Assembly (NCBI GenBank): GCA_023818695.1
Contig: JAMWCF010000001.1
Span: 659,306-697,180 of the forward strand
DNA: 37,875 bases
Direction of reading: 5' to 3'
Origin: Candidatus Omnitrophota bacterium
Lineage (GTDB): Bacteria; Omnitrophota; Gorgyraeia; 1-14-0-20-64-10
Within the stretch, counting starts at the first letter, position 1; the number at the start of each line of letters is the position of its first letter. This document shows positions 12,682 through 18,347 of the stretch, piece by piece. The notes beneath the pieces are model-generated. The model saw only the letters and a list, made by a program, of their open reading frames with translations, did not search any database and was not told the origin of the DNA. The position numbers were made by a program, and so were the translations under genes.

Positions 12682-13860
12682 TCAAATCGTTTCCAGGATA
12701 AGGCACTTCAGATACTTCGATTCCGGGTGGGTCAGCAGGATCGGGTGGTCCTTCGACTGGGTCCGATTCTCCAGCAAGCGGACGGCCCGGCCGGCCCCCA
12801 CGCTGGCCTGGCGAAGCGTCTCCAGGAACAGCTCCTCCGTCATATTGTAGGAGCAGGAACAGGTGATCAGGATCCCTTCCGGTTTCAGGAGCCGCATGGC
12901 CCGCAGGTTGATCTCCCGGTATCCCCGCTTGGCGCCCTGCAGTTCCGCTTTGCTCTTCGCAAAAGCCGGGGGATCCAGAATCACCAGGTCGAACTGTTCG
13001 CCCTGCTTCTCCATTTCTCTCAACCGGTCGAAAGCGTTGGCCTTCTCGGCCCGGATATTTTTGAACCCGTTCAAAGCGGCGTTCTCTTGAAGCAGGTTCA
13101 AGGCCTGTTCCGAATCTTCGATGGCGACGACCTCCTGCGCCGTGCCGGCGGCCTGCAGACTGAACCCCCCTTGGTAGGCGAAAACGTCCAGCACCCTGCC
13201 CTTGGCGAACGAGCCGCTGTGAATCCGATTCTCCCTCTGGTCAAGATAGGCGCCGGTCTTCTGCGCTCGGGAGAAATCGACGATGTAGCGGCGCTTTCCC
13301 TCCGTCACCTCCACCCTCTTCGGCTCTTCGCCGAAAAGGAGCTTCCTTTCAGCCGACAACCCTTCCAGCTTCCGGACGGGGGAGTCGTTCCATCCCAGCA
13401 CCGCCTTGGCGCCGGTGAACTCCACCGCCAGTTCCACCAGAAGAGGCAGCAGCTGCTCTATCCCGAGACTCAAAACCTGGAACACCAGAATATCGGCGTA
13501 CCTGTCCACGATCAGCCCCGGGAAGCCGTCCGCTTCCGAAAAAACGAGCCGGCAGGCGTTGGAATCGGTGACGATCCTCTTTCTGTAGGCAACAGCCGCC
13601 TCGAAGCGGCCGGCCCAGAAATCCCTGTCGATCTGCTCCTGCGGATCCTGGGTGAGCATCCGCAGGGCGATCTTCGACGCCGCGTTGTAGAAGGCCTGCC
13701 CCAGCAGCTGCCCGTCGGGGGCCTTGACGCGGACAACCGCTCCCGAGGAGGGGCCGTCGGCCGTTTTCAGGTCGTCCTTGTAGATCCAGGGATGCCCCGT
13801 TTCGTACCACCGGACCCCTTTGTGCGTGATCGTGACTTCACCCTTCACTTCGTGACCCAT
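12682..13860 (-). CDS. Class I rRNA methyltransferase with PUA-type N-terminus (RlmI/RlmK-like)
   Basis: VRVKAPDGQLLGQAFYN, FPGLIVDRYADILVFQVLS, VLDVFAYQGGFSLQAA, VILDPPAFAKSK, ITCSCSYNM. Confidence 0.9.
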   Translation of the reverse strand: MGHEVKGEVTITHKGVRWYETGHPWIYKDDLKTADGPSSGAVVRVKAPDGQLLGQAFYNAASKIALRMLTQDPQEQIDRDFWAGRFEAAVAYRKRIVTDSNACRLVFSEADGFPGLIVDRYADILVFQVLSLGIEQLLPLLVELAVEFTGAKAVLGWNDSPVRKLEGLSAERKLLFGEEPKRVEVTEGKRRYIVDFSRAQKTGAYLDQRENRIHSGSFAKGRVLDVFAYQGGFSLQAAGTAQEVVAIEDSEQALNLLQENAALNGFKNIRAEKANAFDRLREMEKQGEQFDLVILDPPAFAKSKAELQGAKRGYREINLRAMRLLKPEGILITCSCSYNMTEELFLETLRQASVGAGRAVRLLENRTQSKDHPILLTHPESKYLKCLILETI

Positions 13861-14438
13861 TCTCCCGATGGCTGCTGGATCTTCTCTCCCGGCTCCGCTC
13901 TCTCCCTCTGCTCCTGGGCGAAAGCGGCTTTGACGGTGGCCATGGCATCCCCGGGAAGATTGTTCTGCTCAATGATCGTCCGGTAAATCAGCTCCCGGTC
14001 CCGGTTCTCCTGCTCCACCAGAGCGGTCACTTCCGGAGTGGAAACCAGCGCGCTGACAAGCCCCTGGTTGTTTTCCCCGACCCATCCCTTCATCTTGTAT
14101 TCCTTCAACTGCTTGTACCGATCCCGACGGGAATCGATCGCCCGCTGGGCCTCCGGCGTCATGAACTTCAGCTGCGGCGACGCCGCCCAGGCGGAGGGAA
14201 CCAACCAGTCGCCCAGTCGGCTGCGCGGCTTCTGCGCCGATTTCGGCTCGGGGTTCACCATATCCTCAATGGAGCTGGCCGTTTCCTTGACCTGCCGCAC
14301 ATCCAGCGTGATGTGGGCCTCAATCTTGATCGGCCTGTCCGGGTCGCCCGCGACCGTGGCCCGGCACGCGGCGACCCCGAGGAGACCCCCCCCAGCCAAT
14401 AAAATCCCAAGCGTCATCGTGCATTGTCTCTTCAACAT
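13845..14438 (-). CDS. YdbL-like (DUF1318) protein with N-terminal YnbE-like lipoprotein segment
   Basis: Lipobox LLGVAAC; YnbE-like DPDRPIKIEAHITLDVRQVKETASSIEDMVN; C-terminal YdbL-like ALVEQENRDRELIYRTIIEQNNLPGD...RAEPGEKIQQPSGEWVTK. Confidence 0.82.
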   Translation of the reverse strand: MLKRQCTMTLGILLAGGGLLGVAACRATVAGDPDRPIKIEAHITLDVRQVKETASSIEDMVNPEPKSAQKPRSRLGDWLVPSAWAASPQLKFMTPEAQRAIDSRRDRYKQLKEYKMKGWVGENNQGLVSALVSTPEVTALVEQENRDRELIYRTIIEQNNLPGDAMATVKAAFAQEQRERAEPGEKIQQPSGEWVTK

Positions 14439-14449
14439 GGACTCCCCCC

Positions 14450-15166
14450 TTATAAGATCAGCTCTTTTAAGACCGCCACCGACTCTTTATCCACTCGTAT
14501 CTTCAGATTCAGAAGATGGTCCCCATCGAGATAGAGATCGACCAGATACCGACTTTCATCGGTCCGGACGTCGATCTTTCCCACCTGATAATGAAACAGC
14601 TCCTGGCCTTTCAGCGCCGTCAGCAACTGCCGCCGAGCGTCTCCCTCCGGCATGAAGCTTAAGAGCTGGCGCATCAGTTCGCCGCTCAATGTTCCGCCGG
14701 GATCATCGGCCTTCAGAGCCGTTTCAACCCTTTCCACGGCCCCTGCCGTCCCTTCCAAATCGATCGCCCCCCGCAGCAGACCCGCGGCCTTCCATTCCCC
14801 TTTGCCGACCGTCCGGTCCAGCGCGGCCAAATCCAGCTCCACCTGCCGAACCTGCACCGCCCATTTGCAATCCCCTCGGATCCAGCGGCGGGGGTCGGTC
14901 TGCAGCAGGACGCTTCCGGCCGACAGGATCCGGGTCCCATCGATCGTTTTCCAGTTTACCGAAATCGCCTCCACCTTGAAATGGGGAACAAACCGCAGCC
15001 GCCGGATCTCCACTTTCGTTTCCGGAACCTGTTCTTGAACGCGCGAGCTCACAGCAAGGGAGATCCAGGAAGCCCCGCCCGGCGTAGTCACCCAATAGAG
15101 CAGCGCCCCGGCCGCCAGAACCCCGAGGCACAGCAGGACGGCGAAAACCAGGAGAACTCTTTTCAC
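14450..15166 (-). CDS. Membrane-anchored AsmA/YdbH-like protein (238 aa)
   Basis: GTG start at 15166; KRVLLVFAVLLCLGVLAAGALLYWVTTPGGASWISLAVSSRVQEQVPETKVEIRRLRFVPHFKVEAISVNW, a single N-terminal TM then amphipathic beta repeats; adjacent to the YdbL-like gene. Confidence 0.6.
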   Translation of the reverse strand: MKRVLLVFAVLLCLGVLAAGALLYWVTTPGGASWISLAVSSRVQEQVPETKVEIRRLRFVPHFKVEAISVNWKTIDGTRILSAGSVLLQTDPRRWIRGDCKWAVQVRQVELDLAALDRTVGKGEWKAAGLLRGAIDLEGTAGAVERVETALKADDPGGTLSGELMRQLLSFMPEGDARRQLLTALKGQELFHYQVGKIDVRTDESRYLVDLYLDGDHLLNLKIRVDKESVAVLKELIL

Positions 15167-15168
15167 GA

Positions 15169-16599
15169 TCAAACGGATAGGAAGACCGGCACCAGGCCGC
15201 CGCCCTGGCTGATGTTCACGATCGGCTCCGGCGAACACCGGCCGACGAAAGCCACCCCCTTGGAGGTCGCGGTGACGCTCAAGGTCACGTAATGCTGCTC
15301 CACCTGAACCCGCCCGCTCTGCTTCAGGACCATCATCGGTACCTTCTCGATTTTCACCTTCTCCTGCGCCACAAAAGACCCCGGGCGGGAAAACGCCTCC
15401 TCCAGGACCTTGCTCCACTCCGCCTCCGAGACCTCCTCCCCGACGACCACCTTCTCCCCCCCGTAGCCGCGGTTCGGCTTGAGCACCAGTGCCTCTCTTT
15501 TCTCACGGACGTACGGAATCAGGTCGATTTCGTTCCCCTGAGGATCCGTGGTTTTCCTCTCAAAAATCAGCCGGGTCCAGGGGACCCGGCGCTTCGAGGC
15601 TCGCAACTCTTGCGGGGTGAAGTAGGAAGCGAACGCGGGGCTGGTGAAGATCTCGCACAGGCTTTTGTGGTCGAACTCGCCGAAAACGGTGGAGACCACC
15701 CTGTTCTGGGCGAAAGCGGCCTCTATCCCTTCCACCGACCCGCCGTGCGTCTTGATGGAGACCACCTCTTCCAGCTGGAAGTCCCTGTAGACGATGTCGA
15801 TCTCCTGCCCCTTCAGCAGGAAGGTTTCCCCTTTGGTTTCCAGCTCGCGGGGGTCTCCGACCAGCGAACGAAACCCTTTCTCCTCAAAGAAGCGCTGGAG
15901 CTGGCTGAACTCGTCGCACCCGCCGGTAATCGTCTCCCGTCTTTCGACCAGCCCCACGCGGCAATCCGGCCGGCCCAGTGCTTTGGAGTGGGCCGCCAGT
16001 TCTCCCAGCAGCAGCTGCCTGTAATCGGCCGGCGGGACCAGATCCACATGGGGGATTTTTTCCTTCAGGGACGGAATCAGGTGAGCGTTCACCAGCTCGG
16101 TGGCGGCCGGCATTAGGTAGACGCAACCCACCCCCACCGCGTTGAACTCGATGATCTGGAAGGAGGAGAGATCCTCTTCCACATTCGGACCCAGATTGGT
16201 GTCGAACCGCTCGAAGACCGTCTGTGGGCGGGGGATCTTGTCGGAATAGCTGTCCTTCAGCCACTTCAGCTCCGCTTCCCTCAAAGGAAGGATTTGCTGG
16301 AGGTTCGGATCTTCGAAGTAACGGGGAAGGATCCTGTTGACGGTCCTGCGGATCGCTCGGAAAAGCCCCTGCAGATACCGGGCGGTGGAACGGCGAAGAA
16401 CCCACGGGGTCAGCGCCACAGGGATGATGTTTTGCTGGTCCGTCTCGGTCCCCTGGATCAACAAACTGCGCTCTCTCAAACGGGCCCGGATCTCGCCGGC
16501 GACGGCGTTCAGCTCGGCCTCCGGCAGCTGCTCGATGGCCGAGAAGACCGCTCGTCCGGAACCTGTCCGCTGCCGCCAGTGCGGCTCGCTATTCCCCAA
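15169..16599 (-). CDS. Circularly permuted ATP-grasp-like protein, substrate unknown
   Basis: FERFDTNLG...[46 protein letters not shown]...[32 protein letters not shown] start. Confidence 0.7.
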
Positions 16600-17014: not shown

Positions 17015-17982
17015 ACTCCTTGATAGAAATTTCTCGGCCAGGAGTGCTTCTTCAGCTCGGCCAGCGTCCGGGCGTCCAGCGCAGCGCCGTCGCTGACGGC
17101 GCAGTTCCTCTCCACGTTGGAGACTTTGCGCATGCCGGGAATCACGGTCGAAACCGCGGGATGGCTCAAAACGAACCGCAGCGCCAGCTCAGCCAGGGTC
17201 GGGACAGCGGGAGTGAGCAGTTTTTTAAGCGGCTCCACCCGCCGGCAGGTCTCCGCAAGGCGCTCTCCCCTGAAATAACCGGCCCTCCAATCCCCCCGCT
17301 GGAAGCGGGTTTCCGGTGTCAGCGAGCCGGTGAGAGACCCCTCGTCGAACGGCACCCGCACGATGACGGCCACACCGTGTTCCTGACAAAGGGGGAAAAG
17401 CCGTTTCTCCGGGGTCTGGTCGAAAACGTTGTAGATGACCTGCACCGAATCAAGACCGCCGGAGGCGACGAGCTTCAACACCGACTCCGGCTGGTGGTCG
17501 TTGACGGAGATACCGAAGGACCGGATCTTGCCCTGTTTTTTGAGGAGATCGATCGCCGTGCGCCATTCCTGGGAAGCAAGCCAGGCATCCAGCCAGACAT
17601 GGAACTGAAGCAGGTCGATCCGCTCCCGACCAAGGCGCTTGAGACTGGTTTCGGCGCAGCGGACGATCCAGCTGGCGGGAAAGGCCCGTTCGGCGGGCGT
17701 GGACGGAGGGGGCGGCCACTCCATCGTCTTGGAAGGGACTTTCGTGGCGACATACACCTGCCCCCTCCAGTCCCGCAGGGTCTCCCCGAGCACCTTCTCG
17801 CTGTGCCCGTTGCCGTAGACGTAAGCGGTATCGAAGAAGTTGACACCGAGCTCCAGCGCCCGGCGGATCGCCCGCCGGCCCTCCTCATCGTCGCGCGAGC
17901 CCCATCCTCCGCCCAACCCCCAGCAGCCGAAACCGATCTCGGAGACCTGCCAGCCGGTTCTGCCGAAGGGGCGCAGTCGCAT
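17005..17982 (-). CDS. Aldo/keto reductase
   Basis: [75 protein letters not shown]. Confidence 0.93.
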
Positions 17983-18347
17983 TACTTCTTGTAGGAGGAT
18001 TGCTCCAGGTCGGACATGACAAACTCTGGCTGCATGATCGGCCTGTATCCTTCGGGGACCGGAACGGGGAACGTGACGATCTCGTAGGCCCCCAGCACCG
18101 ACCGGGCGATCGCGTAGCCGACTCCCTTGGCCAGCCCCCAGGAGAGCCCGACGCCGGGCCCGTCCTCCTGCCAGACGAGAGAGGTCTGCTTGAAAATCTC
18201 CATCCAGCCGGTGGCGGCGTTGGCGATGCCCCGGAAAAGTTTTTTCACCACCAGGGCGCCGGTCTCCTCCTCGGCGGCCAGCGCTGGCTGCGCCGCCGCA
18301 GCCATAACCAATCCGATGATCATGAAAGCTGCAAGAATTTTCTTCAT
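17982..18347 (-). CDS. Secreted TIGR04073-like (exosortase-system-associated) protein
   Basis: MKKILAAFMIIGLVMAAAAQPALAAEEETGALVVKKLFRGIANAATGWMEIFKQ...GVGYAIARSVLGAYEIVTFPVPVPEGYRPIMQPEFV. Confidence 0.75.
   Translation of the reverse strand: MKKILAAFMIIGLVMAAAAQPALAAEEETGALVVKKLFRGIANAATGWMEIFKQTSLVWQEDGPGVGLSWGLAKGVGYAIARSVLGAYEIVTFPVPVPEGYRPIMQPEFVMSDLEQSSYKK

Follow-up and report, generated by a model that had tools for sequence, protein, structure and literature searches.

The window, that is, the whole stretch of 37,875 nucleotides that we analysed, carries on its minus strand a gene that joins a YnbE-like lipoprotein segment to a YdbL-like domain, behind a short gene for an AsmA/YdbH-like protein. 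The locus contains the following features:

12682..13860, minus strand: RlmI-like rRNA methyltransferase gene, a downstream neighbour outside the system, overlapping the fusion by 16 nt
13845..14438, minus strand: fused YnbE-YdbL lipoprotein gene, 197 aa in one open frame (PF07027 match; 41-member alignment of fused homologues)
13848..14159, minus strand: YdbL/DUF1318 domain, residues 94-197 (PF07027 on residues 108-197; Foldseek and profile matches to 28oj)
14160..14255, minus strand: linker, residues 62-93, of low model confidence, with an amphipathic motif ahead of A-W-A (column conservation)
14184..14192, minus strand: A83-W84-A85 motif inside the linker (41-member fused alignment)
14256..14366, minus strand: YnbE-like segment, residues 25-61, with a predicted acylated Cys, the strand-forming stretch RPIKIEAHITLDVR and helix 47-61 (hhalign, model)
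14367..14438, minus strand: lipoprotein signal peptide, residues 1-24, with lipobox VAA followed by Cys25 (sequence; lspA homologue in the same genome)
14442..14449, minus strand: ribosome-binding-site-like GGGGGGAG ahead of the fusion ATG (sequence)
14450..15166, minus strand: short AsmA/YdbH-like partner gene, 238 aa, with an N-terminal membrane helix and a beta-groove (model), 11 nt upstream of the fusion

The fused gene begins with an ATG at 14438 and ends with a stop codon at 13845-13847, and the single ORF described in an earlier note on this DNA stands as one open frame, its length being 197 rather than 198 aa. The lipobox and domain layout given there also hold, with VAAC and Cys25, both halves and the A-W-A linker present and the residue numbers slightly shifted: from the N to the C terminus follow a signal ending in VAA, Cys25, DPDRPIKIEAHITLDVRQVKETASSIEDMVN, the linker, A83-W84-A85 and the C-terminal domain. 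Cys25 is invariant across the 41 fused homologues aligned, and the source genome, which is 61% complete, contains an lspA homologue. The model of the fusion has a mean pLDDT of 82.5, with 94-98 in the DUF1318 part and mostly low values in the linker, where residues 84-87 are predicted at below 50. At the other end of the gene, the longest downstream ORF often begins 16 nt inside the end of a fused or split ydbL gene, although the downstream genes differ (window:13845-13860, L028, L036, L037, L039, L048, L049, L051, L054, L058, and L068); the conserved C-terminal Glu-Trp codons give ATGG, the putative start of the downstream ORF.

The C-terminal domain was confirmed as YdbL-like by the DUF1318 search that the earlier note had called for, PF07027 matching residues 108-197 with an E-value of 5.8e-18 and a score of 65.6 bits (cut-off 27), and by its predicted fold, which is that of 28oj, the crystal structure of E. 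coli YdbL that was deposited under the name "Probable chaperone-like protein YdbL." Foldseek placed the window model on this structure with a TM-score of 0.90 on the target (E 1.5e-5), the superposition giving an rmsd of 1.3 over 87 columns at 33% identity, and a profile of fused proteins finds 28oj with an E-value of 4.4e-13. The fused domain has no typical Sec signal of its own: it sits inside a lipoprotein, and the linker has no typical signal peptide.

The N-terminal segment is, by its sequence relationships, YnbE-like. The Pfam model for YnbE, PF13617, has 34 positions and does not match the window protein; a family search of the 41 fused members did not turn it up either, and it has no usable match in the source genome (61% complete). 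The model works, with E. coli YnbE matching at 3e-16 as a positive control, and is simply short; one split-layout relative reaches just E 0.14. The earlier note had asked for a YnbE-profile search and taken a lack of similarity as evidence against the fusion. For the 34-position Pfam model that lack is literally what we found, but split relatives bridge the segment to YnbE. The N-terminal part of the window's clade matches 24 stand-alone lipoproteins, which related genomes encode next to a separate ydbL, with an hhalign probability of 99.3 over 54 columns (E 7.6e-21, for a single comparison and not a database), and the stand-alone lipoproteins of split loci in turn match E. coli YnbE with a probability of 95.1. 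Clade B, a large fused group in the same class as the window, matches E. coli YnbE with an hhalign probability of 93.7 and, in a two-sequence BLASTP test whose E-value likewise refers to that single comparison, at 3e-6; the stretch R-[IV]-x-V-x-A-P-K-E-P-I is common to both. Within the YnbE-like part of the window protein, helix 47-61 is predicted with high confidence.

An AsmA/YdbH-like gene lies directly 5' of the fusion in nearly all loci, frequently with a 4-nt overlap, so that the gene order recognised in the earlier note, from AsmA/YdbH-like gene to YnbE-like segment to YdbL domain, is upheld. Its length is about 240–420 aa in the Omnitrophota fusions and, where the gene is complete, about 660–930 aa in those of Verrucomicrobiota. 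The partner in the window is predicted to consist of a helix at residues 2-26 and about nine long strands (pLDDT 93.7). It matches no AsmA/YdbH Pfam model, PF11739 included, and a Foldseek search with its model gave no significant match; aligning the partners directly with the single sequence of E. coli YdbH by hhalign gave none either. At E<=1, PF11739 is matched by 22 of the 56 partners in the alignment, with 3.6e-12 as the best value, and two clade B partners that we inspected pass the cut-off at positions 647-847 and 682-829 of 893, corresponding to the C-terminal end of YdbH. The partners of the window's family match those of clade B and of the split clade with hhalign probabilities of 96.1 and 97.0, respectively. 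Since the partner has relatives that align to the YnbE-facing C-terminal end of YdbH, it may offer a tractable structural model. The Verrucomicrobiota YdbH-like genes tested gave a weak DUF748 match or nothing, and no match to PF11739. The source genome (61% complete) also holds a TamB C-terminal domain and two AsmA matches. Two further genes of the window are of note: 15169-16599, directly upstream of the YdbH-like gene, encodes a circularly permuted ATP-grasp-like protein (PF14403), and 17982-18347, adjoining an aldo/keto-reductase-like gene, encodes an exosortase system-associated protein (TIGR04073, E 2e-28).

A phylum-wide search with the window protein found matches in 136 of 384 genomes, about 68 of them with the fused layout as counted by eye from the match coordinates. 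We examined 41 fused proteins in sequence; with the named loci, the fused set comprises at least 77 distinct Omnitrophota proteins, from the window's family (L002-L005, four genera), G026 (L006), and clade B (L032-L067 and L074-L140). Loci of the split layout (L007-L031) have two genes, a lipoprotein ORF of 55-120 aa, in which GCTVKAVGDPNRPITINAHIT is typical, and after it a ydbL that encodes a signal peptide of its own. Our survey of contigs covered at least 80 loci and, among the matches listed, two phyla, the Verrucomicrobiota fusions (L141-L153) there coming from Spartobacteria, Chthoniobacterales, and Terrimicrobiaceae. A single-protein scan of genome contigs and a search of plasmids gave no match. 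The survey of recurrence proposed in the earlier note thus places the fusion far beyond the source genome: it is a general trait found in two phyla. One family (f18) mixes the layouts, with a clade B fusion in G121 (L044) and split operons in G087, G114, G338, G355, and G372; gene transfer or differential loss may lie behind this. Genomes G253 and G084 show three matches each, and G084 lists more than one YdbL-like place.

The trees require one or two fusion or fission events. In the tree of YnbE and YdbL, the window's clade falls among the split rows, giving two changes, and forcing all fusions together costs 4.95 log units (p-AU 0.36). Adding the C-terminal part of the YdbH-like partner reduces this to one change: the split rows form a clade with support of 99/96, and the window's family and G026 stand just outside it. 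We do not claim two independent fusions, since a single origin is not rejected at that p-AU and the partner-added tree needs one change. The root of these trees is unsure; were it to separate clade B from all other rows, at the point where the long branch of E. coli joins, the split genes would be a later fission.

The linker contains a conserved motif of the form A-[aromatic]-A. In the 41 aligned fusions, the last Ala (A85 in the window) is invariant, the first position (A83) has Ala in 38 cases and Val in the other three, and the middle residue is always Y, W, H or F. Among the clade B proteins, with a median pairwise identity of 45%, the top frequencies of the three columns are 0.92, 0.86, and 1.00, against an average of 0.29 for the other linker columns. 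An A-[aromatic]-A-like motif is kept in all Omnitrophota fusions, the middle residue being L or C in two of the 77 proteins; the count over 77 comes from a pattern search and is partly circular, which the 41-row alignment is not. Judged by the alignment, such conservation appears to exceed what a neutral relic would show. The motif may be a docking motif, a processing site, both, or a relic of the signal peptide of YdbL. The Verrucomicrobiota fusions have no A-[aromatic]-A in their linkers, so the existence of a fused product does not depend on it. An internal start producing a separate YdbL was rejected as a general mechanism: an in-frame start with a Shine-Dalgarno-like core is present in only six of the 77 proteins, three of which belong to the window's own family.

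The central proposal of the earlier note, a natural fusion of a YnbE-like lipoprotein and YdbL, is confirmed by the open frame, the domain matches, the operon order and the recurrence. YdbL has reportedly been proposed, in a PNAS paper of 2024, to keep YnbE from runaway multimerisation. In E. coli, a plasmid carrying ydbH-ynbE-ydbL suppresses a tamB yhdP mutant (PMC8593681), and two further papers describe an interaction of YdbH with the lipoprotein YnbE (PMC12977461) and propose strand addition between the two at the YdbH C terminus (PMC12045153). We consider it probable, with reasonable confidence, that the window encodes a YnbE-YdbL fusion working in an operon with a short YdbH-like protein of the AsmA family, acylation, strand docking and a chaperone in cis included. 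The lipoprotein signal, YnbE-like segment, YdbL domain, operon order and recurrence are read from the sequence, and from there we infer acylation, location, interaction and lipid transport. The fusion would carry its acyl groups on Cys25 and be directed to the outer membrane, and residues ~36-46 could extend the YdbH-like groove by a beta-strand at its C-terminal edge, much as proposed for E. coli YdbH and YnbE. The tethered YdbL domain, present in cis and once per YnbE strand, would halt uncontrolled stacking of YnbE strand on strand, and with stacking so limited the bridge would form correctly, making the fusion a self-chaperoned YnbE. The direct coupling of YnbE and YdbL that the earlier note had suggested gains plausibility from a fusion that recurs in two phyla.

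Processing of the fusion into two chains at the linker motif is possible. Were the fusion a polyprotein, it would be exported as a lipoprotein, after which signal peptidase I or some other protease would cut at A-[aromatic]-A and set free a soluble YdbL like that of the split genomes. The motif residues obey the -3/-1 rule, the invariant Ala and the Ala or Val two positions earlier stand out from an otherwise variable linker, and the signal-peptide site of the split YdbLs lies at the same place. We nevertheless regard this as unlikely: the stretch before the motif is far less hydrophobic than the split YdbL signal peptides (median 1.23 vs. 2.88) and usually contains one charge, an almost always aromatic middle residue is not what the split YdbL sites require, the Verrucomicrobiota fusions do without the motif altogether, and no SPase I was matched in the source genome (61% complete). 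Equally speculative is the idea that the gene encodes a precursor with a conserved motif of its own for processing or docking between lipoprotein and chaperone; cutting or docking at this site would determine when the chaperone domain allows YnbE to lengthen the lipid bridge, and the split genes of one Omnitrophota clade might have arisen by fission there.

The missing PF13617 match and a monomer model that shows no strand in the YnbE-like segment would suit a lipid-anchored YdbL whose N-terminal segment has lost the function of a YnbE strand and serves as a tether. This we hold to be rather improbable, as conservation in clade B is higher in the YnbE-like part than in the DUF1318 domain (mean top frequency 0.76 vs. 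0.59) and the source genome (61% complete) has no stand-alone YnbE-like lipoprotein above the cut-off. More doubtful still is a role of the operon in exporting lipoproteins or proteins instead of transporting phospholipids: GspN, an AsmA-like protein, moves lipoproteins (PMC12802150), and the window partner weakly matches the GspN-type model TIGR04411 (E 0.028; 13.9 bits, below the cut-off of 50), but the gene order and the best family matches are those of YdbH-YnbE-YdbL, and a reading of the loci that was not aimed at T2SS genes noted none next to the operon. The joining of two genes by a frameshift or an assembly error, raised as a concern in the earlier note, could draw on the split genes of related genomes; we checked and excluded it, and its probability is vanishingly small, as the fused frame is open independently in many metagenome assemblies from two phyla, including four genera of the window's family and the at least 77 Omnitrophota proteins.

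Within the open question of how phospholipids traverse the periplasm, YdbL stands as the part of the YdbH-YnbE bridge that is least understood. The fusion, retained in two phyla, is strong "Rosetta stone" evidence for YnbE and YdbL acting together and provides a single-chain, 1:1 version of the pair for study, while the 238-aa partner is a near-minimal YdbH-like protein tractable for structure work.

Compared with known systems, the locus resembles the E. coli ydbH-ynbE-ydbL operon in gene order, in having all three components and in the YdbL fold (28oj), but YnbE and YdbL are separate in E. coli and fused in the window, and YdbH has 879 aa there against the 238 aa of the window partner. The split Omnitrophota operons (L007-L031) have the same gene order and a DUF1318 domain 45-54% identical to that of the fusion, whereas their lipoprotein and YdbL are two genes and the YdbL carries its own signal peptide. 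Clade B shares the fused layout and the linker motif with the window, while differing in sequence (about 30% identity) and in an N-terminal part, EAPKEPIKVDISMRLDIYQHV, nearer to E. coli YnbE. The Verrucomicrobiota fusions likewise place a fused lipoprotein-DUF1318 gene behind a YdbH-like gene, although their linker is shorter and without A-x-A and their YdbH-like partner is long (660-930 aa).
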